Part shown: one piece after another, positions 8,787 through 26,673 of the stretch | Layout: the number at the start of each line of letters is the position of its first letter | How positions within the stretch are numbered: position 1 is the stretch's first letter | From: Candidatus Levybacteria bacterium GW2011_GWA1_37_16 | Lineage (GTDB): Bacteria; Patescibacteriota; Microgenomatia; Levybacterales; UBA12049 | Assembly (NCBI GenBank): GCA_943354875.1 | Contig: CALRDJ010000007.1 | Location: forward strand, 1-32,188 | DNA length: 32,188 bases | Direction of reading: 5' to 3' | Notes under the pieces: generated by a model | Database searches by the model: none | Seen by the model: only the letters and a program-made list of their open reading frames with translations | Told to the model about the DNA's origin: nothing | Made by a program: the position numbers and the translations under genes

Positions 8787-8860
8787 TGTCATGCTGAATT
8801 TAGTTCAGCATCTCCCTGTGTCGAAACAGAAGTAGATCCTAAAGCAAGTTCAGGATGACA
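8787..8860 (-). repeat. Palindromic element copy 1 (double-hairpin subtype, 74 bp)
   Basis: TGTCATGCTGAATTTAGTTCAGCAT...ATCCTAAAGCAAGTTCAGGATGACA; reverse complement aligns with copy 3 at 65/74 by hand count. Confidence 0.9.
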
Positions 8861-8872
8861 CCCTAAAACGAA

Positions 8873-9394
8873 CTAGGGCGACACATTTGGACTCGTCAAT
8901 CCGTAATTACACACATATGACTCACCACCACATTTGACTCCAAGTGGTACATTGGCGCACTTATTACTCACACCAGTACAAACCTGCGAATCCTGACTCC
9001 CTCTCTCTAAACTAGCATAGAGATAGTAAGATTGTCTAGCTTCGTTCGTCACATATATATAACTACTAGAACCAGGATCTTTAGGAACCAGTGTCATATA
9101 TGGCACCCATTGCTGGCCCCATATCACCGGTGTTCCATCCAATCGCTTTATGTGGTAAGACGAGTCTGCCTCAGGATATCGGCCATTATCTTGATAATAT
9201 GCCTCAAGCGCACGAGATACTTGAGCCAAATCACTTTTTCTCCTTGAATCGTTAGCTTTCTGGAATTGTCCGAAAGGATTTAAGATATTTAATAACATAC
9301 CACCTAATAAAGCCAAAATTCCTATAACAACCACCATCTCAATGAGGGTAAACCCTTTATTTTCGGTGCTATGTAATCTTATCTTTCTCATCAT
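8873..9394 (-). CDS. Prepilin (GspG-like)
   Basis: NKG/FTLIEMVVVIGILALLGGMLLNILNPFGQFQKANDSRRKSDLAQVSRALEAYYQDNGRYP. Confidence 0.87.
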   Translation of the reverse strand: MMRKIRLHSTENKGFTLIEMVVVIGILALLGGMLLNILNPFGQFQKANDSRRKSDLAQVSRALEAYYQDNGRYPEADSSYHIKRLDGTPVIWGQQWVPYMTLVPKDPGSSSYIYVTNEARQSYYLYASLERGSQDSQVCTGVSNKCANVPLGVKCGGESYVCNYGLTSPNVSP

Positions 9395-9429
9395 TCAATT
9401 ATTCACACGCCCAACCATCTCCTACTCCG

Positions 9430-9957
9430 TCACAACGTCGGAGTAGGAGATGGCAACACATACGATGCGACATATGCACAGTCTACATTTCCAGATACTA
9501 CGCATGCCCATGTCGAATCAAATGCAGCAGGCAAGCAATCAGTGAGACCAGAGAGGGGACATACTGACGTTGTGGATGGTTCTTTCGAAAGCTGAGTAAA
9601 AAGAACCATCCATTGCGGACAAGAACCATTCTTTACATACGCATAGTCTTGATTGGTAGTGGGATCTTTAGGAACTGTCTTCATATATACTTGCTCACTA
9701 CTACTCAGCACCGAGAGAGAGGCTGGATAACACTTCGTATCATTATAATACACATCAAGCGAATTACGGATTTGTCCAATATCATGCATCCTAGCAGAAT
9801 CACGCCCCTTATTTAATTGCCCCATAGGATCTAAAAAAATAACAAGATAGGCAAGCATAACCCCCAACATAGTCAGAACTACCAGCAGCTCAATTAGGGT
9901 AAAAGCGGACTGATTTTTGTCAAAATTTCTGAGCCAAATAATAAAACCGCTATACAT
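9430..9957 (-). CDS. Prepilin-like protein with Ala at the -1 cleavage position
   Basis: MYSGFIIWLRNFDKNQSA/FTLIELLVVLTMLGVMLAYL; start set at ATG 9957 (ORF extends to 10017); 5' end overlaps the pilD 3' end. Confidence 0.75.
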   Translation of the reverse strand: MYSGFIIWLRNFDKNQSAFTLIELLVVLTMLGVMLAYLVIFLDPMGQLNKGRDSARMHDIGQIRNSLDVYYNDTKCYPASLSVLSSSEQVYMKTVPKDPTTNQDYAYVKNGSCPQWMVLFTQLSKEPSTTSVCPLSGLTDCLPAAFDSTWACVVSGNVDCAYVASYVLPSPTPTL

Positions 9958-10679
9958 CCTGCTACCAAAAACGGACCGAATGGGATGGTTCCACCGGAAA
10001 ATTTTTTCTTTCCCCATAAAACTAGTATGAGCGCCACTCCGGCGCCTGTCAAGAACGCGAGATATAATCCAATCACTATCCCGGGAAATCCTAAGACAAG
10101 TCCCATGAGAAAAACGAACTTTACATCACCAAATCCCATACCACGCCCCTTAGTCAAGAGAAATAACAAAAGAAAAAATAAAAACGCACCAACTGCCGAA
10201 GGGAGATAGTTATGAATTAAGAAGTAAGAATCATGAATTAATAATACGTAAAACAGTGAGATTATGATCGTTGGATATAAAACTTTATCTGGAATTATTC
10301 CATATCTCAGATCGGTAAAAAAGATTACAATCATGATTGAGATTATAAAAAAATAATATCCAAACTCTCCATAATTCCTAATTCCTAATTCATAATTCAG
10401 AGGAGATAAGTTTAAAAACAAAAAAACGTAAGATATTCCGGTCACTAACTCCACGACTAAGTACTGCCATCCGATAAATCGTTTACATTTAGTACAGCTT
10501 CCTCTTTGAATTAAAAATGAAATTACGGGAAGAAGTTCCCACCATTCCAGCTTCTTTTTACAAAACTCGCAATGCGACCTGCCAAATAGAACCGATTCTC
10601 CACGAGGAATTCGATCCACTAAGACGTTCAGAAAACTTCCTACACAAAGTCCGATAATAAATATTAGGAGTATAGTCAT
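9894..10679 (-). CDS. pilD: Prepilin peptidase (leader peptidase/N-methyltransferase)
   Basis: GLCVGSFLNVLVDRIPRGESV, two CxxC motifs, FFTDLRYGIIPD and MGFGDVKFVFLMGL catalytic Asp motifs. Confidence 0.95.
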   Translation of the reverse strand: MTILLIFIIGLCVGSFLNVLVDRIPRGESVLFGRSHCEFCKKKLEWWELLPVISFLIQRGSCTKCKRFIGWQYLVVELVTGISYVFLFLNLSPLNYELGIRNYGEFGYYFFIISIMIVIFFTDLRYGIIPDKVLYPTIIISLFYVLLIHDSYFLIHNYLPSAVGAFLFFLLLFLLTKGRGMGFGDVKFVFLMGLVLGFPGIVIGLYLAFLTGAGVALILVLWGKKKFSGGTIPFGPFLVAGCIAVLLFGSEILTKISPLLP

Positions 10680-12688
10680 TTTTTAAATGAATTCTGAATT
10701 ATGGTCAGGATATCTTCAGTAAATACCTCCTTAAATTTTCCTGCTACTCGCTTAGCCGATTCAGAGTCATGATAACATTCTGAGTACGTAGTATAGAGAA
10801 ACACATATGCAGTTATACTGAGCGGATCTTTTTCTATGGTTTTTTTAAACTCCTGCTCAGCATTTTCACAATTTTTTGCTGAAAGCTGATGCACTCCTTG
10901 GATAAGATAGACCTTTGGATTTTCAGGCGCCATCATACGAGCCTTATTGTAATAAACTTGAGCAGTTGACGTAGCCTGATATTCTGATAATAAGTAATTT
11001 CCTGTTATCAGAAGCCCGTCCGAGTAGATGACAGGAATTTCTGAAATGGTTAGGTTTTTATACGCCAGAGCGTTTTGTTCAGAAGTATGAAGACTATCCC
11101 AAATGGATGTGAGCGTCTTCTCATATTCTTCCTGCGATGGAAGATCGGATGGACTCACCAGCTTATAGATAATTCCATATGGCACCCAATGAAATTTTTC
11201 TCCGTTTTTTGGTTGTATCTGAAGGTAAGAAAAAACACTTCTGTCTTTTCCCATATACTCTATAATGCGCGCTAGCTCATCGCTCGGATTTATACCACCA
11301 GGATGAAGCTTGGCATATTCTTTTTGCTTTTTTTTAAAAAGTTCGTGCTGCCCTAAGGCATTAGCGTTTAGTATGGTTACATCAGGTCGAATCCCTAAAA
11401 CATAATGCGCATACCATGTATTAAAAAGCAATGTATCTCCTGACGATAAGAGTATGGCATTTTTCGGTAAAACAGATAAACTATCCATGCCTAAGTAATC
11501 ACCGATATATACTGAAGATAAGTTAGTCTTAGGATAATTATAGGTAAAAAGGAGAAATGGGATGAGAAAAAATACTGCGAGAAAAAGAAGTTGGTATTTA
11601 TGCAGAAATGTTTTTCCTAACATTTCCAAAATACCTAAAAAACCAAATGGAAGCAACAAAAGAAAAAAGATAAATGAAAGGAGAAAAAAACGTTCGAAAA
11701 TTCCTATAAAAAAAGCGCTATGAGGCGGAAACCCTGCATATGCCACGAAAACTGGCCCAGAAATAAATACTCCCAAGAGCACCGCTGCTAAATAATTTTT
11801 ATCGCGTCGAAATAGATATATACTGCCGAGCATACAGAGAGCAAGTACCGGCAGGGTAAGCTGGATAATAAATTGAGATGCGTACATCTTGAGAAGAACC
11901 ACGCGCTGCAACAACACTGGCGATTCAAATACACCAGCTGTAAATGTCCCATAATCTTTTCGGAGGAGCAAATGAATAAATGAAGGAATATCATGAACCT
12001 GATCCCAATTAATCGGCGGATTATAGGAGGATGCGATCGGCACATATACATATACGGAGAAACCGAGAAGAAAGAAAAAAGCACCCGCTAAAAAAGATTT
12101 GTACTGAAAATGTCGGAACTGAAGCTTTTTCCGCTGTGGCCACCACAATAGGAAAAAAGAAGGAATAACTAACACGATTGTCTGATGATGTGTACTGGCT
12201 AAGCCGAGAAGAAAGCAGAATAACCAAAACAGTTTCTTACTCCATCTTTCTCGAAGATGCAGTGACACGAAAAATAATGCTATAGCGAAAAAAGCATTTA
12301 ACATAAAAACTTCTGCAATCTCGCTATAAAACCAGACATAATAAGAAAATGCGACGACAAGAGAGGACAGAAGTGATATGATCACATGCTTCGTTAACTT
12401 TAATGTGATGAAGTAGTAGATCAAAACCAGTAAACTTCCCGAAAACGCAGATATAAGTCCTACATTAAACGCGGGGGTTTGACCTAAGGGCATATGGGAC
12501 AAGATATATCCCAGTAGTGTGAATAATGGATATCCTGGTGCATGAGGAACCCCGAAGACATATGCAGCGCTCACCAAGTCTCCTACGTCCCCACCATATA
12601 CACTCCGCGAGAGGTTATGAATATATAGCGAGAGTACACACAAAAAAAGAAGGGCAGGCACCAATACCGGTAATTTAGAAGAGGACAT
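10676..12688 (-). CDS. DUF2723 (TMEM260-type) multi-TM glycosyltransferase-like protein with C-terminal TPR-like region
   Basis: YGGDVGDLVSAAYVFGVPHAPGYPLFTLLGYI matches the DUF2723 signature; many TM helices; C-terminal TPR-like helices (AQVYYNKARMMAPENPKVYLIQGVHQLSAKNCENAEQEFKKTIEKDP). Confidence 0.8.
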   Translation of the reverse strand: MSSSKLPVLVPALLFLCVLSLYIHNLSRSVYGGDVGDLVSAAYVFGVPHAPGYPLFTLLGYILSHMPLGQTPAFNVGLISAFSGSLLVLIYYFITLKLTKHVIISLLSSLVVAFSYYVWFYSEIAEVFMLNAFFAIALFFVSLHLRERWSKKLFWLFCFLLGLASTHHQTIVLVIPSFFLLWWPQRKKLQFRHFQYKSFLAGAFFFLLGFSVYVYVPIASSYNPPINWDQVHDIPSFIHLLLRKDYGTFTAGVFESPVLLQRVVLLKMYASQFIIQLTLPVLALCMLGSIYLFRRDKNYLAAVLLGVFISGPVFVAYAGFPPHSAFFIGIFERFFLLSFIFFLLLLPFGFLGILEMLGKTFLHKYQLLFLAVFFLIPFLLFTYNYPKTNLSSVYIGDYLGMDSLSVLPKNAILLSSGDTLLFNTWYAHYVLGIRPDVTILNANALGQHELFKKKQKEYAKLHPGGINPSDELARIIEYMGKDRSVFSYLQIQPKNGEKFHWVPYGIIYKLVSPSDLPSQEEYEKTLTSIWDSLHTSEQNALAYKNLTISEIPVIYSDGLLITGNYLLSEYQATSTAQVYYNKARMMAPENPKVYLIQGVHQLSAKNCENAEQEFKKTIEKDPLSITAYVFLYTTYSECYHDSESAKRVAGKFKEVFTEDILTIIQNSFKK

Positions 12689-12694
12689 CAGAAT

Positions 12695-13261
12695 TTAGAG
12701 CGAACACCAGTAGCAGGTAGAGACGCCAGTTGATGCCTCAGAGACACACCCAGCTGTTATAACTCCAGATAAAGTATATCGTGTATTTGGATCTCTCATT
12801 TGAGATTTAGAGGTGGGAAGAAAACAAGCAGTAACACCGTTAGTCGAACCACTAACGATAATGCCATTCATAACAGCGGCCACAGTGGTAAATCCTGATT
12901 TTAATTCCCCCTCTGTGATAAGAGGCGAGATACATCCCGACATAGCAGCAGCTGAAAGCGCAAGACCTGTCGGAATCGAACCAGCATTACAAGCTGCACT
13001 AACAGCAGGATCAGACCAAGGAAGCGAACTATGCGTTGTATAATACCTGATATTTGCGTTTACATATTCTACCGAAGCGTTTTTTAAATTTGCATCATTT
13101 GCTTTTTTCAGTTGTTCAAATGGATCGATAGTAGCGATGAGTGCGGATGCTAAAATTCCGAGGATACCGATAACGACCAAAAGTTCGATGAGAGTAAAAC
13201 CTTTTTCGGAGCTTGAAACTTTAAACTTAAAATTTGAAATTCTTTTTAGCATGGTCGTCAT
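12695..13261 (-). CDS. Prepilin-like protein
   Basis: MTTMLKRISNFKFKVSSSEKG/FTLIELLVVIGILGILASALIATIDPFEQLKKAND; start uncertain (ORF extends to 13309). Confidence 0.8.
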   Translation of the reverse strand: MTTMLKRISNFKFKVSSSEKGFTLIELLVVIGILGILASALIATIDPFEQLKKANDANLKNASVEYVNANIRYYTTHSSLPWSDPAVSAACNAGSIPTGLALSAAAMSGCISPLITEGELKSGFTTVAAVMNGIIVSGSTNGVTACFLPTSKSQMRDPNTRYTLSGVITAGCVSEASTGVSTCYWCSL

Positions 13262-13325
13262 AAAATATTCTCTATAACTTATTGAACCATATACAAAAAC
13301 CTTTGTCAAGTGCTGACTTTATTAT

Positions 13326-14528
13326 TTACTGAATAGCTGATGTTAGATTATAAATCGGTACGATAATAGAGATGATTAAGAATGCTACTCCAAGACCCAA
13401 CACGACCATGATAAATGGCTCCATCGCAGTAGTCAATGTCTTAACTTTTTGATTTACTTCTCCTTCAAAGTAGCCTGAGATTTTTGTCATCGATTCATCC
13501 AGTTTTCCCGTCTGTTCACCGATTTTAACCGTCTGAATAAGAATGGCAGGAAAAAGAGAATACGCAGACATAGCGTCGCCCACCGATATGCCCTTTTCTA
13601 CACGTCTTGATACGTTTATGATAGCGTTTTTATATAAAATATTACCCGCCACATCTGATGATTGATTTAATGCTTCCACGACCAAGGTTCCAGTTCCGAC
13701 AAGTAAGCCAAATGTTCTACTAAATTCTGCCAAAATCGACTCCTTCAAGAGGGGACCAAAGATAGGAATTTTTAACACGAGATCATCCATAACCAGCTTT
13801 CCTGATGGAGTCGCATGCCATCTCGTGTAAAGAAAAAATCCGAGAAAAACAGCTCCCAAAACAACTGGCCAAAAATTGATAAAAAAGTTAGACATGCCTA
13901 CCACGATCAAAGTCGGTAACGGAAGCTCTACGCCCAAATTTTCATATAGAACAGATAGCTGAGGAATAACAAAAATCATCATAACAGACAGGACCAAAAT
14001 CATACCGATAATAACGATGGTCGGATACATAAGAGCTGACTTAATAGTACCTCTTAGCTTTTCTTCTTTTTCTAAATTATCTGCCAAACGAAGTAATACT
14101 TTATCCAGTAAGCCGGATGACTCAGAAGCACGAATGAGCGAGATATAGATAGATGAAAATGTGGATGGATACTTGGCAAGCGCATCAGATAACTGCCTGC
14201 CTTCCTCCACATCTGAAATAACACCTGAGACTATCTCACTCATTCGCTCATTGTGAATCTGGTCACGCAAAATAGTAAGAGATTGCATGAGAGTCAAACC
14301 AGCGGTTATCATAGAGGCCAACTGTCCAGTAAAAAACACCAGATCGGTGCTCGTCGTCTTGCTTCTGGACAAGTATTTTAAAATTCCTCCCGCTTCTTTC
14401 GGTGCGATTTTTATCGGAAGAAACTCACGACGCCTCAAGAATATAGCTGCTTCTTCCTGATCCTTCGCTTCTATTTCTCCGCTAACAGTTTTTCCTTCTT
14501 TACTCACCGCTTTGTAAAGTAGCTTCAT
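13326..14528 (-). CDS. pilC: Type IV pilus inner membrane platform protein PilC
   Basis: LYKAVSKEGKTVSGEIEAKDQEEAAIFLRRREFLPIKI; GspF/PilC TM pattern; EPFIMVVLGLGVAFLIISIIVPIYNLTSAI C-terminus. Confidence 0.95.
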   Translation of the reverse strand: MKLLYKAVSKEGKTVSGEIEAKDQEEAAIFLRRREFLPIKIAPKEAGGILKYLSRSKTTSTDLVFFTGQLASMITAGLTLMQSLTILRDQIHNERMSEIVSGVISDVEEGRQLSDALAKYPSTFSSIYISLIRASESSGLLDKVLLRLADNLEKEEKLRGTIKSALMYPTIVIIGMILVLSVMMIFVIPQLSVLYENLGVELPLPTLIVVGMSNFFINFWPVVLGAVFLGFFLYTRWHATPSGKLVMDDLVLKIPIFGPLLKESILAEFSRTFGLLVGTGTLVVEALNQSSDVAGNILYKNAIINVSRRVEKGISVGDAMSAYSLFPAILIQTVKIGEQTGKLDESMTKISGYFEGEVNQKVKTLTTAMEPFIMVVLGLGVAFLIISIIVPIYNLTSAIQ

Positions 14529-14533
14529 AGAGA

Positions 14534-15595
14534 TTATCCTACTTTTCTCATTAACTCATCCTGATGCAAGGCATAGGCTTTCGCCGTTTCAAGACTAATA
14601 GTGCCCGAAAGAACTAATTGGGCTAGAGACTGCTCCAAACTTATCATGCCGATATCTTGCGAGGTTTGAATAACTGAATCAATAAGATGACTTTTCCCAT
14701 CTCGAATATTACTCGCTACTGCCGAGGTGCCGAGTAAGATTTCGCATGCCACGACACGACCACCACCAATTTGCGGCAAAAGTCGCTGGGAGATTATCCC
14801 CTTCAGTGTAGTAGCGAGCTGATTACGTATCTGTGACTGTTGATGGGCGGGAAACGAGTCAACTATGCGATCTATGCTTTGAGATGCTGAGTTCGTGTGA
14901 AGAGTAGACAAAACCAAATGGCCGGTTTCTGCGATAGTAATGGCAGCACCCATGGTTTCTGCATCACGCATTTCGCCAACTAATACTACGTCAGGATCTT
15001 CGCGCAGTGCAGAACGCAAAGCCATTTCCCAAGAGTGCGTATCTATTCCCATCTCTCTTTGGGACACGATACTTTTTCCCGGAGGATATGTGTATTCAAC
15101 CGGATCTTCTATGGTTAGAATATGCGCTGCCTTCGTAAGATTCACTTCATTCACGATTGCAGCGAGAGTAGTAGATTTTCCATGACCAGTAGGCCCACAC
15201 ACCAAAACCAAACCCTGCTTCAACTGAGCAAATGAATGAGCTATCTGTGGCAATTTTAAATCCTCAATGGTTTTGATATTCGGAGTAAGAAAACGAAGCG
15301 CTGCAGCAAGTGCTCCTTTTTCATAATATGCGTTTACCCGAAAACGCCCTGAAGCAGAACTCTGACCAAATCCGATAGAGAAGTCCAGTTCCTTATTCGT
15401 GATCAATAATTCTTTCAACTCTTTAGATACCAAAGAAAATACCATCGATTCTATCAACTCACTAGTCAAAACAGGAAAGTTGGTCAGATAAGCGAGCTCA
15501 CCATCGATACGTACTGCAGGAGGAACTCCTACCAAAAGATGTAGATCCGAAGCCTTATTTGTTACTGTTAATTGTAATAATTGCTGGATATCCAT
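14534..15595 (-). CDS. pilT: Type IV pilus retraction ATPase PilT
   Basis: ASDLHLLVGVPPAVRIDGEL, CGPTGHGKSTTLAAIV Walker A, LREDPDVVLVGEMRDAETM, HLVLSTLHTNSASQSIDRIVDSFP. Confidence 0.95.
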   Translation of the reverse strand: MDIQQLLQLTVTNKASDLHLLVGVPPAVRIDGELAYLTNFPVLTSELIESMVFSLVSKELKELLITNKELDFSIGFGQSSASGRFRVNAYYEKGALAAALRFLTPNIKTIEDLKLPQIAHSFAQLKQGLVLVCGPTGHGKSTTLAAIVNEVNLTKAAHILTIEDPVEYTYPPGKSIVSQREMGIDTHSWEMALRSALREDPDVVLVGEMRDAETMGAAITIAETGHLVLSTLHTNSASQSIDRIVDSFPAHQQSQIRNQLATTLKGIISQRLLPQIGGGRVVACEILLGTSAVASNIRDGKSHLIDSVIQTSQDIGMISLEQSLAQLVLSGTISLETAKAYALHQDELMRKVG

Positions 15596-15618
15596 ATTCG
15601 CTCTTGCTCAAATTTGAA

Positions 15619-17454
15619 CTACTCCTGTGCTACCCTGAGCACTTCTTCAATCGTCGTCACACCCGCCAATGCCTTTAAATATCCATCCTGCTTCATGGTA
15701 ATCATTCCTCCGACTACCGCCTCTTTTTGTATGGTAGCACTATCGGACTTTTGCAATATCAAGTGAGCAATTTTTTCATTTATGGTCAAAACTTCGTAAA
15801 TACCCATTCTTCCCGTATATCGAGCATTTCCACAATCGAGACACCCTTTTCCACGATATAATTTCATCTCTTTTCCATCTTGAGGAAGATATGGACCTAA
15901 TTCTTTTTTTATCTCCTCTACTACTTCCGGTGAGGGAACATACGCCTCTCTACAAGTCTGACATACTTTTCGAACAATACGCTGCCCGATAACTCCAGTC
16001 ATGGTGGAAGCAAGTAAAAAACTTTCTGCACCCAAATCTATAAGACGAGGAAGCGCCCCCGCTGCATCGGACGTATGTAGTGTGGAGAAAACCAAATGAC
16101 CAGTAAGCGCTGCTTGAAGAGCTAAGTCTCCAGTTTCTTTATCACGAATTTCTCCGACCAGAATAATATTTGGGTCCTGACGCAAAAATGACCTCAGTCC
16201 CGAAGCAAAAGTAAGTCCCACTGCAGGATTTATCTGAACCTGATTAACACCAGCAATCTGATATTCGACCGGATCTTCTAACGACATGATATTTACTCGA
16301 GTAGTATTTAGCTTCGATAAGAGAGAATAAAGGGTAGTGGTTTTTCCAGATCCAGTAGGTCCACAAACCAAAATAATTCCATGTGGACGCAAACTAGCCG
16401 TTTCTAAGTTCTTAAGCGTTGATCCATTAATTCCCAAGTCTTGCAACGTCGGTATTCCTCCAGATTTACGAAGCAAACGCATAACAATCTTCTCACCAAA
16501 TACAGTAGGAAGAACTGAAATACGCAGATCAACCTCGTCTTTGGCTACTTTAAAGTTAAACCGACCGTCTTGCGGAATCCTGTGTTCATCGATTTTCATC
16601 TCGGATAAAATTTTTATACGAGAAACTACTGCCTCCTGTACTGGCTTTGGAAGAGAAAGTCGATCATATAAGATTCCGTCAATTCTATACCGGACTCGAA
16701 CTCGATCCTCCTGTGGCTCGATATGCACGTCAGACGCACGACTAGAAACAGCATACTCTAGAATAGTCGATACGATTTTGGCGATAGGTGCTTCCTTAAT
16801 AATCTGAGAGATCTGCGCAATATCAATCGTTTTAACTTCATTAAGTTGCTCTGTTTCTTTTATGGCTTCGCCAACTTCTGTAACGAGCTCCTGTCTATAC
16901 TGCGTCGCTATAGCCTCTGCGACACTAGAACGCGTGGCGGCAAATGATTTGATAGCAAGCCCTGTTTTCTGCTGAACGAACTGAGTAGCTTCGATATTTG
17001 TCGGATTACTCATCGCTACCGAAAGAGTTTTCATCGACTCGTCATATATAAAAGGGATCAGAGAAAAACGCTCAGCTACGGCGCGAGGAACAAAATTCAA
17101 CGCCTGGGGTGAAAACGTCGTATCGCTTAAAGAAATAAAAGGAATACCTAAAGTCTTAGCACGTGCTTCAGCAAGCTTCTCTTCAGACACATACTTTCCC
17201 GACTCCAGAATTGACTCAATTGGCTGATTTGAACTAATACTTTGTAATTTAATCTCTTCATACTGTGCTGGAGTAAGAATATGATCTTCAAATAAAATAT
17301 CCACGAGAGACTGACTATGATTTACTGGAAGCGTCGAGGGAGTAGGCTGTGATACAGGATCTGGATTTACAGCAGGTGCCACACCAGGTTGTGGTGTAGA
17401 TAAATCTACAGAAATAGAACCGACGTCTTGTGTTGCGGGCATTAGTTTCATCAT
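15619..17454 (-). CDS. pilB: Type IV pilus extension ATPase PilB
   Basis: MSHA_E/GspE N-domain, CGPTGSGKTTTLYSLL, LRQDPNIILVGEIRDKETGDLALQAALTGHLVFSTLHTSDA, CxxC...CxxC zinc motif. Confidence 0.96.
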   Translation of the reverse strand: MMKLMPATQDVGSISVDLSTPQPGVAPAVNPDPVSQPTPSTLPVNHSQSLVDILFEDHILTPAQYEEIKLQSISSNQPIESILESGKYVSEEKLAEARAKTLGIPFISLSDTTFSPQALNFVPRAVAERFSLIPFIYDESMKTLSVAMSNPTNIEATQFVQQKTGLAIKSFAATRSSVAEAIATQYRQELVTEVGEAIKETEQLNEVKTIDIAQISQIIKEAPIAKIVSTILEYAVSSRASDVHIEPQEDRVRVRYRIDGILYDRLSLPKPVQEAVVSRIKILSEMKIDEHRIPQDGRFNFKVAKDEVDLRISVLPTVFGEKIVMRLLRKSGGIPTLQDLGINGSTLKNLETASLRPHGIILVCGPTGSGKTTTLYSLLSKLNTTRVNIMSLEDPVEYQIAGVNQVQINPAVGLTFASGLRSFLRQDPNIILVGEIRDKETGDLALQAALTGHLVFSTLHTSDAAGALPRLIDLGAESFLLASTMTGVIGQRIVRKVCQTCREAYVPSPEVVEEIKKELGPYLPQDGKEMKLYRGKGCLDCGNARYTGRMGIYEVLTINEKIAHLILQKSDSATIQKEAVVGGMITMKQDGYLKALAGVTTIEEVLRVAQE

Positions 17455-17498
17455 AAGGAAAACTAATATATAATGTCAAGGCACGCAAAGCAAAAAAC

Positions 17499-18179
17499 AT
17501 GCAAAGTCTTATACTGATCTCCAAAGATTCAGACAAAATAAAACTATACCTCGATTCCCTTACTAAGGAGGAGCATATAAGTGTTTTCGATACACAATTT
17601 CTTGATCCCGAATCATCACTCGGCATAAGAGACGTACGAGAGTTACAAAATACTGTTTTTCTAAAACCTCTAGAAAGTCCGAAAAAACTTATCATCATAA
17701 AAAAAGCCGAAACCGCCACCATAGATGCCCAAAATGCCTTACTGAAACTTCTTGAAGAACCACCACCACATCTCCTTATTGTTCTTGTTACGGAAAATAT
17801 AGATGCTTTACTTCCCACGGTAAGATCGAGGTGCACGATCGTAACTATAAACGAATCGAAGGAATCCACAAATATAAAACCAGAAGAACTAGACGTGATA
17901 CTATCCGCCACAACACTGGGAGCAAAACTAAAACTTGCCCAAGACCACGGAAAAACGAAAGAAGAGGCACTACTCTGGCTACACACACTTATCGCTACGA
18001 CCCGTAGCTCCCTTACTGAGTTCCAAACCAGCCAATCAAGTCAGAAAGTATCTGCATATCTGAAACTTTTAGCATCTCTAAACAAGGCGTATGTTATCTT
18101 AAGCTCTACGAATACGTCTCCGCGACTTGTTCTCGAAAACACACTCCTGCAAGGCACAACTGAATATATACGAAAATAG
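17499..18179 (+). CDS. holB: DNA polymerase III subunit delta'-like
   Basis: GIRDVRELQNTVFLKPLESPKKLIIIKKAETATIDAQNALLKLLEEPPPHLLIVLVTENIDALLPTVRSRC; clamp-loader AAA+ motifs with SRC sensor 1. Confidence 0.82.
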   Translation: MQSLILISKDSDKIKLYLDSLTKEEHISVFDTQFLDPESSLGIRDVRELQNTVFLKPLESPKKLIIIKKAETATIDAQNALLKLLEEPPPHLLIVLVTENIDALLPTVRSRCTIVTINESKESTNIKPEELDVILSATTLGAKLKLAQDHGKTKEEALLWLHTLIATTRSSLTEFQTSQSSQKVSAYLKLLASLNKAYVILSSTNTSPRLVLENTLLQGTTEYIRK

Positions 18180-18226
18180 GCAAAGTCGAATAGTACCATG
18201 AGATATCAAACAGATTACATCAAGCG

Positions 18227-18256
18227 TTGACAAGGCTATAAAAGGTTTGGTATGCT
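18227..18256 (+). promoter_or_regulatory. Promoter upstream of gyrB (TTGACA-18 bp-TATGCT)
   Basis: TTGACA 18227-18232; TATGCT 18251-18256. Confidence 0.55.
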
Positions 18257-18280
18257 GTCTCTCTATGAAAGCCGAGCTAG

Positions 18281-20275
<1,995 letters not shown>

Positions 20276-20320
20276 TTAATTTTCTATTCGAAATTAGGAA
20301 GAGGGGGTGACTAACAAATT

Positions 20321-20836
20321 ATGGATATAAGTAAATTATCATCAGGAGAAAATCCAGAGAATGGTCAAGTAAACGTATTTATCGAAATCCCAGCAGGATC
20401 TTCGGTAAAATATGAGCTCGATAAAGAAAGTGGCATGATCGTCGTGGATAGATTCCTATACACAGAAATGGAATACCCATTCAACTACGGGTTTGTTCCT
20501 CATACTGAGTCAGGTGACGGTGACCCACTCGATGTACTAGTTTTAACGAGTAAACCAGTCGTTCCAGGCGTAGTTATCGCTGCGAAAGTTATCGGAATGC
20601 TCGAAACTGAAGACGAGAAAGGTCCAGACACGAAAATTATCGCAGTTCCCATGGAAAAAACCAATCCACCATTTGGAAAATATAATGATGTTTCTGAGCT
20701 TCCGAAAGATGTTACTGAAAGCATAAAAAACTTTTTCGAACACTATAAAGAAAAAGAACCAGGCAAATGGGTAAAAGTAAGTGGCTGGAAAGGGAGAGAA
20801 GACGCGATTACAGCAGTAAAAGAATCAATAAAATAA
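20321..20836 (+). CDS. ppa: Inorganic pyrophosphatase (class I)
   Basis: VFIEIPAGSSVKYELDKESGMIVVDRFLYTEMEYPFNYGFVPHT...GDGDPLDVLVL. Confidence 0.97.
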   Translation: MDISKLSSGENPENGQVNVFIEIPAGSSVKYELDKESGMIVVDRFLYTEMEYPFNYGFVPHTESGDGDPLDVLVLTSKPVVPGVVIAAKVIGMLETEDEKGPDTKIIAVPMEKTNPPFGKYNDVSELPKDVTESIKNFFEHYKEKEPGKWVKVSGWKGREDAITAVKESIK

Positions 20837-20840
20837 GGGT

Positions 20841-20924
20841 TGTCATCCTGGAGCGAAGCGATAGGATCTCAGACCTGCCGGCTGGCAGGGATTCTATCAG
20901 TCACTTCGTTCCCTCCAGAATGAC
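20841..20924. repeat. Palindromic element copy 2 (long-hairpin subtype with inner CCTGCCGGCTGGCAGG hairpin)
   Basis: TGTCATCCTGGAGCGAAGCGATAGGATC...GATTCTATCAGTCACTTCGTTCCCTCCAGAATGAC. Confidence 0.88.
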
Positions 20925-20941
20925 GAAGAAATTTTAAACAT

Positions 20942-23410
20942 ATGGCAGATATTGGTAAACTATTACAAACAGAAATAACGACAGAAGTTAAGAAAGCGTA
21001 TTTGGATTACGCTATGTCTGTTATCGTATCTCGCGCACTCCCGGATGTCAGAGACGGACTAAAACCTGTTCATCGCCGTATTCTCTACGCGATGCATGAA
21101 ATAAATCTTACGCATAGTGCGAAATATTCCAAGAGTGCGAAAATCGTCGGAGAAGTCATGGGAAAATACCACCCTCATGGAGACATTCCTATCTATGACT
21201 CACTCGTCCGCATGGCTCAAAATTTTTCTATGCGATATCCCCTCATCGATGGTCAGGGGAACTTCGGATCCATGGACGGAGATCCACCAGCACACATGCG
21301 CTATACCGAAGCCAGAATGGCAGCCATTACTGCCGAGATGCTCACAGACTTAGATAAAGAAACAGTTGCGTACGTAAGCAACTTCGACGCTACGCTGAAA
21401 GAACCCGTATTCCTTCCGGCAAAATTACCCAACCTTCTCCTTATGGGGTCTGAGGGTATCGCAGTCGGTATGGCCACGAAAATTCCTCCTCACAATCTCG
21501 GTGAGGTAATCGATGCAGTGGTATTTATGCTAAGCAGGGTTAACATCGACACGAAGGACTCCAAAGTCACTACTGATGTCACCGTAGACGAATTACTCGA
21601 ACACATAAAAGGCCCTGATTTTCCTACCGCCGGTGCCATTTACGATATTTCAGAAATTAAAAACCTGTATGCGACTGGACGCGGAAAAATAATTATTAGA
21701 GGAAAAGCTGACATCGAAGAAATTGGTCAAGGAAAATCAGCCATTATTATCACCGAACTACCGTACCAAGTAAATAAAGCATTACTCGTAGCGCGTATCG
21801 CAGACCTAGCAAAAGAAAAAAAGATCGAAGGCATTACAGATTTACGTGACGAATCAGACAGACAAGGCACCCGAGTAGTAGTAGAACTCAAACGTGATGC
21901 GGTACCGAAGAAAATATTAAATAATTTATTCAAACAAACAAGCCTCCAAACCATTTTCTCGGCCAACGTCGTCGCGCTCGTAGATGGAACACCCCAAACT
22001 CTAAATTTAAAGTCTATTTTAGAAGAGTACATAAAACATAGATATCTCGTCATTAAAAAACGTTCAGAGTTTGAACTCAGACAAGCCCAGGCACGACTTC
22101 ATATCCTCGAAGGACTGAAAATAGCAGTAGACCATATCGACGCAGTGATAAAGACCATTCGTGAATCAAAAACCCAGGACGAAGCAAAGCAAAACCTTAT
22201 GACGAAATTCAAACTGTCTGAAATTCAAGCAGTAGCTATCCTAGACTTACAACTGCGTCGCCTCGCAGCACTCGAACGACAAAAGATTGAAGATGAATAC
22301 AAAACAGTTAAGGAACTTATCGAATACTTACTGGATCTTCTCGGTCATTCAGAAAAAATTATTCCTATTATAAAAGAAGAGCTGGCAAAGTTAAAAGAAA
22401 AGTATGCTGATCCCAGAAGAACGAAAGTGTATAAGAGCAAGGTCGGGGAATTCTCAGACGAAGACCTTATCCCAAATGAACCCACCGTTATCACGCTTAC
22501 GACCACGGGGTATATAAAACGTCAATCTCTCGGTAGCTTCAAAACTCAACATCGTGGAGGAAAAGGAATCAAAGGCATGACGACTAAAGATGAGGATACC
22601 ATAGGTCACATCAGATATGCCGAAACACATGCCAACCTCTTATTCTTCACCAATCGTGGAAAAGTATATCAGCTGAAAGCGTACGAAATCAGTGAGTCCC
22701 AAAGAACGAGTAAAGGAACTGCTATCGTAAACCTGCTAAATATAGAGCAGGGAGAAAAAGTGGAATCTTTCATCGTATACAAGAAGGAACAAAAAAACGG
22801 CTTTGTATTCTTAACTACGAGAAATGGAACAGTAAAAAAATCCCCCCTAGCTGAATTTGATAACATTAGAAAAAGTGGAATCGTAGCCATAAAATTAGAT
22901 AAAAATGATGAGCTTGTATGGAGCAACTTCAGTAATGGTGATGATGATATCCTAATAGTCAGTAAGATTGGAAAGGCAATTCGTTTCTCAGAAAAAGAAG
23001 TTCGTCCACTCGGCAGAAGCACCATGGGAGTACGAGGAATAAAACTTACCCCAGATGATGAGGTCATCAGTATGGATGTTATTTTCAAAGGCGACAATCC
23101 GGATCTCTTGACCATTATGGAAAAAGGACTAGGAAAAAAGACATCAGTAGGTCAATTCAGAGGGCAAACCAGAGGAGGACAGGGAGTGAAAGTAGCAAAT
23201 GTTAGTACGAAAACCGGAAAAGTGATGATCGCCCAACTGATTCCACCTGCCTGTATCGACGTCATCATTACATCGAAAAAAGGGCTCATCGTAAAGCTGG
23301 AACTCTCAGGAGTACCGAAGCTTTCCAGAGCTACACAGGGCGTAATCCTTATGCGATTTTCTAATCCTGCAGACTCAGTAGCAGCAGCTACCTGTATCGA
23401 AGGCATTTAA
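20942..23410 (+). CDS. gyrA: DNA gyrase subunit A
   Basis: [35 protein letters not shown]...[21 protein letters not shown]; GyrA-type C-terminal blades. Confidence 0.97.
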
Positions 23411-23420
23411 CCATCTCTCG

Positions 23421-23494
23421 TGTCATCCCGAATTTAGTTCGGGATCTACTTCTGTCTCGACACAGGGAGATGCTGAAATGAATTCAGCATGACA
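23421..23494 (+). repeat. Palindromic element copy 3 (double-hairpin subtype, 74 bp)
   Basis: TGTCATCCCGAATTTAGTTCGGGATCTACTTCTGTCTCGACACAGGGAGATGCTGAAATGAATTCAGCATGACA. Confidence 0.92.
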
Positions 23495-23499
23495 AACAC

Positions 23500-24384
23500 A
23501 TGAGAGTAGATGGCAAAGAAATTGCACGAGTAATATTAGAACAGCTCAAACAAAAAGTAAGTGAGTTAAAAGCTTCTCCTCATCTCGTCGTAATATTAGT
23601 GGGGAATGATCCTGCATCTGCTGCGTATGTACGCCAAAAAGAACTGAAAGCAAACCTAATTGGCATACAGGCTACTGTCCACAGACTACCACAAAATGTC
23701 AGCCAAACCGAACTCCTCATGACAATCAAGCAGTTTAATGATGACTCAGGAGTTCACGGTCTTATCGTCCAAAGACCATTACCGAAAGCTATTGACGAAG
23801 CTCTCATAGATGCCGCTGTTTCACCAGAAAAAGACATCGATTCATTTCGCGATGATTCACCATACGATATGCCTTTGGCATTGGCCGTATTTAAAATATT
23901 AGAAAAAGTTTTTAAAGAGAGTGAGGGGACACAGGAGACAAATGCATCTCCCTCTGTCTCTTCTGTCTCCTATGACTCCTTTATTACCTGGCTTAAGACC
24001 AAAAACATTGTCGTTATGGGAAAAGGACAGACTGGCGGAGGACCCACCATAGCCTTACTACAAAAAAAAGGGATAAATCCTACCGTAGTAGATAGTAAAA
24101 CGACCAACCCCAGCGAGATTACCAAAACTGCAGATATTCTTATCTGCGCAGTCGGTAAGTCAAACGTCGTGAATGCTGAAATGATCAAACCAGGTGCTAT
24201 CTTACTCGCTGTAGGCATGCACAGAGGAGAAGACGAAAAACTCCATGGAGATTATGAGGAAGAGGACATTAAAGATATCGCATCATACTATACGCCGATT
24301 CCCGGAGGAGTCGGGCCAGTGAATGTAGCTATGCTGCTCCAAAACCTCGTCTCCTCAGCACAGAAAATTCAAGTTGCGGGTTGA
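23500..24384 (+). CDS. folD: Bifunctional methylenetetrahydrofolate dehydrogenase/cyclohydrolase
   Basis: ILVGNDPASAAYVRQKELKANLIGI, HGLIVQRPLPKAIDEALIDAAVSPEKDIDSF, YYTPIPGGVGPVNVAMLLQNL. Confidence 0.92.
   Translation: MRVDGKEIARVILEQLKQKVSELKASPHLVVILVGNDPASAAYVRQKELKANLIGIQATVHRLPQNVSQTELLMTIKQFNDDSGVHGLIVQRPLPKAIDEALIDAAVSPEKDIDSFRDDSPYDMPLALAVFKILEKVFKESEGTQETNASPSVSSVSYDSFITWLKTKNIVVMGKGQTGGGPTIALLQKKGINPTVVDSKTTNPSEITKTADILICAVGKSNVVNAEMIKPGAILLAVGMHRGEDEKLHGDYEEEDIKDIASYYTPIPGGVGPVNVAMLLQNLVSSAQKIQVAG
23919..23978. repeat. 60-bp imperfect palindrome inside the folD coding sequence
   Basis: GGGGACACAGGAGACA (23925-23940) and TGTCTCTTCTGTCTCC (23955-23970) are inverted repeats, 13/16 matches plus wobble positions; outer GAGT/ACTC. 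Confidence 0.75.
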
Positions 24385-24409
24385 CAGGGGAACCCGGCTT
24401 TGATAGAGT
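24381..24409 (+). promoter_or_regulatory. Promoter for pyrB overlapping the folD stop codon (TTGACA-17 bp-TAGAGT)
   Basis: TTGACA 24381-24386, 17-bp spacer, TAGAGT 24404-24409. Confidence 0.5.
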
Positions 24410-24415
24410 TAAATC

Positions 24416-24469
24416 CCAGAGGGAAGCTTTTACCACATAAGGAGAGCGACCGAGAACTCTGGTTTTTTT
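24416..24469 (+). promoter_or_regulatory. pyrB leader with terminator-like stem CCAGAG/CTCTGG and T7 run abutting the ATG; possible attenuator
   Basis: CCAGAG 24416-24421 pairs with CTCTGG 24457-24462, followed by TTTTTTT 24463-24469; alternative hairpin TCCC-AGA-GGGA at 24414-24424. Confidence 0.4.
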
Positions 24470-25441
24470 ATGGCTAAAATAAGCGACACCGCGATAAACG
24501 GCCACTTTACAGGGAAGGATATCTTGTCGCTCGATCAATTCTCTCCATCAGACATACAGCTCCTCTTTAAACACGTTTCTGACATGGCTAAAATTGCCAA
24601 AAACGCAAAAGCATCAGATCTACTAAAAGGAAACATCGTAACACTTATTTTCTATGAACCATCAAGTCGCACATTTGGTAGTTTTTCTGCATCAGTGAAA
24701 CAACTTGGTGGACAAACAGTTGAGATCCAAAACCCACAGAGTTTTTCCTCTGTTTCTAAAGGAGAGACACTGGAAGACACTATGAGAGTGTTCGAGGCAT
24801 ACTGCGATGCGATTGTCATCAGACATCCTGTACAAGGAACTGCAGAAAAAGCAGCAGCAGCATGTACTGCCGTCCCCATTATTAATGCTGGGGATGGAGT
24901 CGGAGAACACCCGACTCAGGCACTTCTGGATCTTTACACTATCTATGAAAAACATGGTCGCTTGGATAACCTGACAGGACTCGCAGCAGGAGATATACTA
25001 AATGGCAGAACCGTTCACTCGCTCATAAAAGGACTTAGCCTATATGAGGGCAACACATTGTATCTCTTATCCCCAGAGCAGCTCCGGCTTTCGAAAACTG
25101 ACTACGATAAATTTTCAAAAAAAGGAATCAAACTTATAGAAATCTCAAACGAAAACGAAATTCCAAAAGACTGCGACTTCTGGTACTGGACGCGTGTCCA
25201 AAAAGAACGATTTACCGACATGCAGGAATATGAATCAGTAAAAAATAAATTTATAATTACACCAAAATTACTAGCCGAATATGGAAATGAAAACCTTATC
25301 ATCATGCATCCACTACCTCGAGTAGGAGAAATCGAAACCACTATAGACGACGACGATCGAGCAGTATATTTAAAATCTCAAATTCGAAACGGCATGTATG
25401 TACGCATGGCACTGGTGGCATTAGTGTTAGGAAGATTATAA
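24470..25441 (+). CDS. pyrB: Aspartate carbamoyltransferase catalytic chain
   Basis: FYEPSSRTFGSFSASVKQLGG, KGETLEDTMRVFEAYCDAIVIRHP, INAGDGVGEHPTQALLDLYTI, HPLPRVGEI. Confidence 0.97.
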   Translation: MAKISDTAINGHFTGKDILSLDQFSPSDIQLLFKHVSDMAKIAKNAKASDLLKGNIVTLIFYEPSSRTFGSFSASVKQLGGQTVEIQNPQSFSSVSKGETLEDTMRVFEAYCDAIVIRHPVQGTAEKAAAACTAVPIINAGDGVGEHPTQALLDLYTIYEKHGRLDNLTGLAAGDILNGRTVHSLIKGLSLYEGNTLYLLSPEQLRLSKTDYDKFSKKGIKLIEISNENEIPKDCDFWYWTRVQKERFTDMQEYESVKNKFIITPKLLAEYGNENLIIMHPLPRVGEIETTIDDDDRAVYLKSQIRNGMYVRMALVALVLGRL

Positions 25442-25451
25442 TCATCCACGT

Positions 25452-25523
25452 TGTCATTCCGAACTCGTTTCGGAATCTCCCTAGTAATCGAGCAGGAGAT
25501 CCTGAATTTATTTCAGGATGACA
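25452..25523 (-). repeat. Palindromic element copy 4 (double-hairpin subtype, 72 bp)
   Basis: TGTCATTCCGAACTCGTTTCGGAATCTCCCTAGTAATCGAGCAGGAGATCCTGAATTTATTTCAGGATGACA. Confidence 0.92.
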
Positions 25524-25550
25524 CGAAATAAGGGATGATTTTTTATAACT

Positions 25551-26615
25551 ATGACAGGTAAACTTATTTTAGAAGATAAAACAATCATAGAGGGTATTTC
25601 CTTTGGAGCAACTACATCTATCGCTGGAGAGGTAGTTTTCTCAACTGGCATGACCGGATATCCTGAGACTATGACCGATCCATCTTTCGCAGGGCAAATT
25701 CTTATTTTCACCTATCCTATTATCGGTAATTATGGAATCCCAGATAAAAAATATTGGGAGTCTGAAAAAATCCAAACCACAGGCATCATCGTATCCCAAT
25801 ACATTGACACCCCCTCTCACTCCGAACTAAAACAGACACTCGCCAAATGGCTAAAATCCGAAAATATTCCAGCCTTAGAAATTCCTGACACGAGACATCT
25901 CACGAAAATTTTGCGAGAAAAAGGTACGATGCTTGGAAAAATCATCGTAGATGACCCTGAGCAAAGTCGAAAGGTTGACTTTGACTTTTATGATCCAAAT
26001 CTCGAAAACCTCGTCGCCCGAGTATCAACGAAGAAAATTATTCATGAAGGAGAAGGAGAGAAAACCATTGTGTTAATAGACTGCGGAGCCAAAGAAAATA
26101 TTAATCGCTGTCTCATAAATAGGGGAGTCAAGGTAATCACAGTACCATGGAATGCTGATCTATTTACCGATAAGAGAATAGGAAAATTTGATGCAATTGT
26201 TATCTCCAACGGCCCTGGTGATCCGAAAATGGCGAAAGAAACCATCGCCACAGTTCGAAAAGCTATAGAGAAAAAAATCCCAATCCTCGGTGTATGCCTC
26301 GGCAACCAGATACTCGCACTTGCAGCAGGTGGGGATACGTATAAACTAAAGTTTGGTCACAGAAGTCAAAATCAACCCTGCACACTCGTCGGTACGAAAC
26401 GTTGTTATATAACGACGCAAAATCATGGTTTTGCAGTATCGGATAAACTACCGAAGGATTTTAACACATGGTTTGTAAATGCAAATGATGGATCGAACGA
26501 AGGAATCATCCATACATCTCTTCCCATTATGTCTGTCCAATTTCATCCTGAAGCCACCCCAGGACCTGTCGACACTGAATGGATATTTGACTATTTCTTG
26601 GAGAAATTTTCCTAA
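25551..26615 (+). CDS. carA: Carbamoyl-phosphate synthase small subunit
   Basis: VFSTGMTGYPETMTDPSFAGQILIFTYPIIGNYGIP; glutamine amidotransferase GVCLGNQILALAAGG; VQFHPEATPGP. Confidence 0.97.
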   Translation: MTGKLILEDKTIIEGISFGATTSIAGEVVFSTGMTGYPETMTDPSFAGQILIFTYPIIGNYGIPDKKYWESEKIQTTGIIVSQYIDTPSHSELKQTLAKWLKSENIPALEIPDTRHLTKILREKGTMLGKIIVDDPEQSRKVDFDFYDPNLENLVARVSTKKIIHEGEGEKTIVLIDCGAKENINRCLINRGVKVITVPWNADLFTDKRIGKFDAIVISNGPGDPKMAKETIATVRKAIEKKIPILGVCLGNQILALAAGGDTYKLKFGHRSQNQPCTLVGTKRCYITTQNHGFAVSDKLPKDFNTWFVNANDGSNEGIIHTSLPIMSVQFHPEATPGPVDTEWIFDYFLEKFS

Positions 26616-26673
26616 TGTCATCCTGAACGGAGTGAAGGATCTTAGTAGATTCTTCGTTTCACTCAGAATGACA
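26616..26673. repeat. Palindromic element copy 5 (long-hairpin subtype, 58 bp)
   Basis: TGTCATCCTGAACGGAGTGAAGGATCT-tagt-AGATTCTTCGTTTCACTCAGAATGACA. Confidence 0.92.

Follow-up and report, generated by a model that had tools for sequence, protein, structure and literature searches.

The CGTC REPs are intergenic palindromes that carry a CGTC, TGTC or CCTC tag and a stem of 8–9 bp beginning A-T, T-A, closed by a loop of 4–5 nt, and they occur mostly as head-out (HH, tags outward) heterodimers with conserved spacers (Di Nocera, De Gregorio, Rocco 2013, PMC3733652). The class includes RPE-4 and RPE-6 of Rickettsia and dRS3 of Neisseria, its commonest tail is CCA, which is not a requirement, and it was listed in five phyla, the CPR not among them (PMC3733652). 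No dedicated transposase was associated with these repeats, and the enzyme was left open (PMC3733652).

Two other systems invite comparison with the repeats analyzed here. With RAYT/REPIN systems they would share a small enzyme clade, cognate palindromes, REP-gene-REP units and gene-less dimers moved in trans. They differ in that the enzyme here is a GIY-YIG nuclease and not a Y1 HUH transposase, that the tag is TGTC/CGTC and not GTAG, and that covalent strand-joining chemistry is not expected of the GIY-YIG enzyme. In Neisseria, the site-specific single-stranded nuclease family Ssn, also GIY-YIG, is reportedly found with NTS repeats; it is said to act on these repeats of its own and to modulate natural transformation. 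A relative of the nucleases described below was found in N. gonorrhoeae among CGTCATTCCCGCGCAGGCGGGAATC repeats (43% identity over 86 aa); it joins their clade (clade S) in our tree, and it is presumably Ssn. Neisseria would then already offer one known pair of GIY-YIG enzyme and repeat. Ssn resembles the nucleases studied here in its clade and in having its gene beside its repeats, but the cases here belong to CPR bacteria, where gene and repeats make up compact units (repeat-gene-repeat) for which empty sites are seen and which have gene-less derivatives. Moreover, several nuclease/repeat types occur here in one genome, and single-strand cutting is only predicted.

The window is a stretch of 32,188 nucleotides from a draft genome of 1.05 Mb in 69 contigs, whose gyrA has its closest named relatives in Candidatus Levybacteria (Microgenomatia, CPR; 73–77% identity). 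The first-pass annotation had placed five intergenic copies of a palindromic family in the window, and all five were located there, as dimers to which no strand is assigned. Copy 1 (8787–8860) is a type A CGTC-REP head-out dimer with heads at 8787 (+) and 8860 (−), lying between two T2SSG-like pseudopilin genes (R1 scores of 39.9 and 37.3 bits). Copy 2 (20841–20925), between ppa and gyrA, is a type C dimer reading TGTCATCCTGGAG..GATAGGATCT, with CGTCATTCTGGAG as its other head. Copy 3 (23421–23494), between gyrA and folD, and copy 4 (25452–25523), between pyrB and carA, are both type A dimers, the latter with the top R1 score of the genome (41.8 bits). Copy 5 (26616–26673), between carA and carB, is a type B dimer (TGTCATCCTGAACGGAGTGAAGGATCT / TGTCATTCTGAGTGAAACGAAGAATCT), the first base of which is the base directly 3′ of the carA stop codon. 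All five sit a few bases 3′ of a stop codon between co-directional genes. The window itself contains a pseudopilin/type II secretion-like gene cluster, as well as a 12-bp tandem repeat (CAAGTCCTACAG) in four in-register copies at 572–631, inside the open reading frame 370–888.

A regular expression describing a TGTCAT head with a hairpin after it matched nine of the window's ten half-units, compared to a mean of 0.69 and a maximum of 4 in shuffled sequences; the tenth (20886–20925, minus strand) is a weak match to the covariance model. Every half-unit carries a TGTC or CGTC tag and every copy has the head-out form. The ends given in the first-pass annotation need correcting for copy 2, which extends to 20925 and not 20924 and whose last bases read ATGACG, a CGTC head. 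The type A copies have an 8-bp stem (GAA..TTC) with a 5-nt loop and an invariant AT, and form dimers of 72–74 bp, whereas in copies 2 and 5 the outer stem is limited to 5 bp and the loop is long. Copies 1 and 3 run in inverse orientation to each other (77 nt, 88% complementary), as had been proposed together with the idea that these units can sit in either orientation; long asymmetric cores are indeed common to copies in both orientations.

Judged by their sequence, the five window elements are CGTC/TGTC-tagged REPs in HH-dimer form. The suspected likeness to REP and Rickettsia palindromic elements is borne out by the tag, the AT-starting stem, the 8-bp stem and 5-nt loop of type A, the head-out dimers and the intergenic position, all of which agree with CGTC REPs, RPE-4 and RPE-6 included. 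However, the outer stem is shorter and the loop longer in types B and C, and the tails are mostly CTCC or CTAC instead of CCA; CCA and CCAG tails were found on many proteobacterial and other Microgenomatia units. The repeats also depart from those of the 2013 survey (PMC3733652) in having an associated GIY-YIG nuclease clade and a CPR host.

The covariation of stem arms claimed in the first-pass annotation is real. Over the 18 units used to build the covariance model, 18 stem cells were changed on both sides (4.3 in shuffles) and 87.5% of the stem cells were paired (14.6–44.5% in slid controls), the third stem pair being C-G in 8 units, U-A in 7 and G-C in 3. Searching the full genome with this model recovered dispersed copies, as that annotation would have it: at least 90 full-length units at E < 0.01, a lower bound with 150 of the 751 candidates scored. 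At least one unit was present in 136 of the 281 genomes of the class Microgenomatia. The loci extracted from the host genome contained 36 head-out units, a few of them chance or long pairs. At L036:1501–1859 (contig C3), head-out type A ends bound a unit of 359 bp in which type C and type D units are found but no nuclease gene. Three other loci of the host (L008:1715–1810, L029:1501–1637 and L034:1501–1628) have a second palindrome, CTTCCGCCTCGGATC..GAGTCGAGACGGGTG, in their type A hairpin loops, as would result if members of one repeat family inserted into another family's loops.

On contig C8 of the host genome, a 374-bp element (25656–26029) consists of head-out REP ends enclosing the gene of a 97-aa GIY-YIG nuclease (PF01541 match), and the same REP-nuclease-REP arrangement was found in another genus (genome G127). 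When the 82 genomes of the order were searched with the C8 protein, nearly all close relatives were flanked by units; none of the 30 best PF01541 matches of the class had flanking units. The flanking is therefore limited to the subfamily near the C8 gene and is not a property of GIY-YIG genes generally.

This subfamily was delimited with a tree of 123 GIY-YIG domains, from which a fragment of a clade member was left out, and a fixed flank rule (head-out hairpin units on both sides, within 220 bp). Clade S (51 members, support 100/98) holds all 37 genes of the tree that are flanked on both sides; a further 7 are flanked on one side and 7 on none. Both-sided flanking was seen in 0 of the 72 other intact GIY-YIG genes, the lone case outside being the clade-S fragment, and in 2 of 283 other open reading frames of the same loci. 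In two sets collected later, 22 of 27 and 18 of 32 genes were flanked on both sides; IMG/VR matches served solely to test the flanking further. The catalytic Y, Y, R, H, E and N are kept across the clade, with Y10, Y21, G23, R31, H35, E68 and N87 conserved in at least 98% of its members.

A tblastn search of plasmid records yielded relatives in Neisseria, Azospirillum, Sinorhizobium, Rhizobium, Shinella, Novosphingobium, Sphingobium, Aeromonas, Photobacterium, Planktothrix and Spirosoma, and CGTC, TGTC or CCTC hairpins were found in 12 of the 14 loci. Several of these genera include CGTC species named in the 2013 survey (PMC3733652). Two of the records, NZ_CP119142.1 and NZ_CP119140.1, are 2.17-Mb Neisseria gonorrhoeae sequences filed as plasmids, evidently chromosomes. 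No relative of the nuclease was found among 50,697 phage records, and carriage of these elements by phages is therefore unlikely. Two loci (L248 and L252) have, directly upstream of the nuclease element, tandem 21-bp reiterations, each combining one REP half with its flank (TTAAGGTTGTCATCCTGAACTT..).

In our best reading, every REP type is paired with a small cognate GIY-YIG nuclease of clade S, whose gene often lies between two like units. Within a locus, the units to the left and right belong to one type (1.08 versus 2.92 mismatches of 8; 0 of 10,000 shuffles), distances between proteins go with those between REPs (Mantel r 0.48; 0 of 5,000), and each nuclease subclade has its own REP type even across phyla, the Planktothrix gene (Cyanobacteria) grouping with CPR type B genes. 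The host genome encodes clade-S genes of type A (C8), type C (C31) and type D (C10), so that window copies 1, 3 and 4 (type A) and copy 2 (type C) have cognate nucleases in the same genome. For copy 5, no type B nuclease was found in the host draft genome; it is present in relatives. The type D nuclease predicted a type D REP family in the host genome, where 7 matches were found, 5 of them away from the gene (control 0). Over the 281 genomes of the class, and treating them without phylogeny correction, the presence of clade S was associated with REP abundance (OR 16, p 2.5e-20 at ≥5 units); seven genomes have at least 20 model hits and no clade-S gene. The only GIY-YIG neighbor of a type B unit seen in the host genome belongs outside clade S and lies about 50 bp downstream of a type B dimer (L208, C12:11779–12112), an adjacency that is probably due to chance.

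In genomes G127 and G294, a 376-bp nuclease-bearing element splits thyA from folA, two genes that overlap by 4 bp in two genomes of the same genus (G295 and G246). The nuclease copies of G127 and G294 differ by a dN of 0.021 and a dS of 0.43, and the gene is therefore under purifying selection. An empty site was also found for a window copy: the gyrA-folD gap measures 89 bp in the host, of which the 74-bp copy 3 leaves 15 bp, and 0, 3, 11, 16 and 44 bp in five Levybacteria relatives, none of which has a hairpin there. In principle, empty sites could be deletions. Among 33 dimers, there was no excess of matching flanks at lengths from 2 to 9 that would point to a target-site duplication, and no target consensus was found.

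That the repeats flank, and match in type, one GIY-YIG family in several phyla makes the clade-S nuclease the likely mover of CGTC REPs. Our best reading, to which we give a probability of about two in three (0.68), is that REP units are mobilized in trans by cognate clade-S nucleases and that the window copies are gene-less members of such families. The nuclease would nick single-stranded DNA, at forks or in incoming DNA, at the tag adjoining the folded hairpin; single-strand cutting by clade S would follow from the activity reported for Ssn. The nick might then free or copy the head-to-head segment. If any segment bounded by two such heads can move, with or without a gene, gene-less dimers would thereby multiply in trans. 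Since GIY-YIG enzymes are hydrolytic and have no strand-joining activity, reinsertion would have to be completed by host repair or recombination, a lone hydrolytic nuclease leaving integration unexplained.

The same pairing could exist without mobility. REPs would then be recognition marks, serving for example to control the uptake or recombination of incoming ssDNA, and their spread would be due to recombination, gene conversion or some other process. The pairing statistics are also compatible with this, and it would agree with the action on NTS and on natural transformation reported for Ssn, with the REP-rich genomes that lack clade S and with the pseudopilin/type II secretion-like cluster of the window. 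We nevertheless regard it as rather unlikely, given that the gene lies between two head-out units, that thyA and folA are separated by an entire unit of this kind, inserted whole, and that gene-bearing and gene-less units of the host genome have the same ends. Vertical intergenic features such as terminators or mRNA stabilizers, alike by functional convergence, would account for the place of all five window copies just 3′ of stop codons between co-directional genes, and transcribed hairpins could affect operon mRNA. The first-pass annotation had itself named hairpins shared at orthologous loci as evidence against dispersal, and the orthologous gyrA-folD gaps are empty, which refutes vertical descent as the whole story. 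The asymmetric cores common to both orientations also speak against it and the type matching with the nuclease would be left without explanation, which makes this account highly improbable; a secondary effect of the hairpins on mRNA is possible.

The first-pass annotation had pointed to a Y1 (RAYT/IS200-like) transposase. CGTC REPs would then move in the manner of GTAG REPs, with the GIY-YIG gene a mere passenger. Y1 genes are indeed common in the class (190 of 281 genomes) and their presence correlates with REP abundance, but more weakly than that of clade S (OR 3.7, likewise without phylogeny correction). No PF01797 (Y1) gene was found in the host genome, and seven others with at least 10 model hits also lack one. 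Of 20 Y1/RAYT loci drawn from the class, none has such units on its flanks, the nearest approach being one locus with a dimer more than 1 kb away, and the same absence was reported in 2013 (PMC3733652). A linkage of the repeats to Y1/RAYT is not supported by the unflanked loci and the Y1-free, REP-rich host, and Y1 mobilization, already largely refuted, is very unlikely. Terminal inverted repeats of at least 6 bases and a compact size would also suit MITEs of a DDE transposase recognizing TGTCAT ends. Yet the 33 dimers show no target-site duplication, the internal hairpins covary where simple terminal repeats need not, and the linked gene encodes a GIY-YIG nuclease, so that of all these readings we find this one the least credible.

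Mobilization by clade-S nucleases might extend beyond this host. We would put at about even odds the wider proposal that CGTC REPs are generally moved by cognate GIY-YIG ssDNA nucleases, as a class of minimal elements of ~375 bp, each a single nuclease gene with a hairpin on either side, with gene-less derivatives across CPR, Proteobacteria, Cyanobacteria and Bacteroidota, operating without a strand-joining transposase, the host joining the cut DNA. If true, dispersed bacterial palindromes would be made by GIY-YIG nucleases as well as by Y1 transposases, few elements encoding their own enzyme would be smaller than the ~375-bp one, and CGTC-type repeats would be extended to CPR bacteria. The matched pairs name a candidate for the enzyme left open by the 2013 survey (PMC3733652) and provide defined substrates, the other REP types being built-in negative controls. 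Literature searches on the repeat sequence, and on GIY-YIG combined with REPs, returned nothing relevant. Relative to the literature examined, what is new is the occurrence in CPR, the compact elements in which repeats bracket a nuclease gene and for which empty sites exist, the cross-phylum type matching and the link to the 2013 enzyme gap. On a Planktothrix agardhii plasmid (L296), a type B nuclease and its repeats lie between the gene of an MmeI-like restriction enzyme and the DISARM gene drmA.
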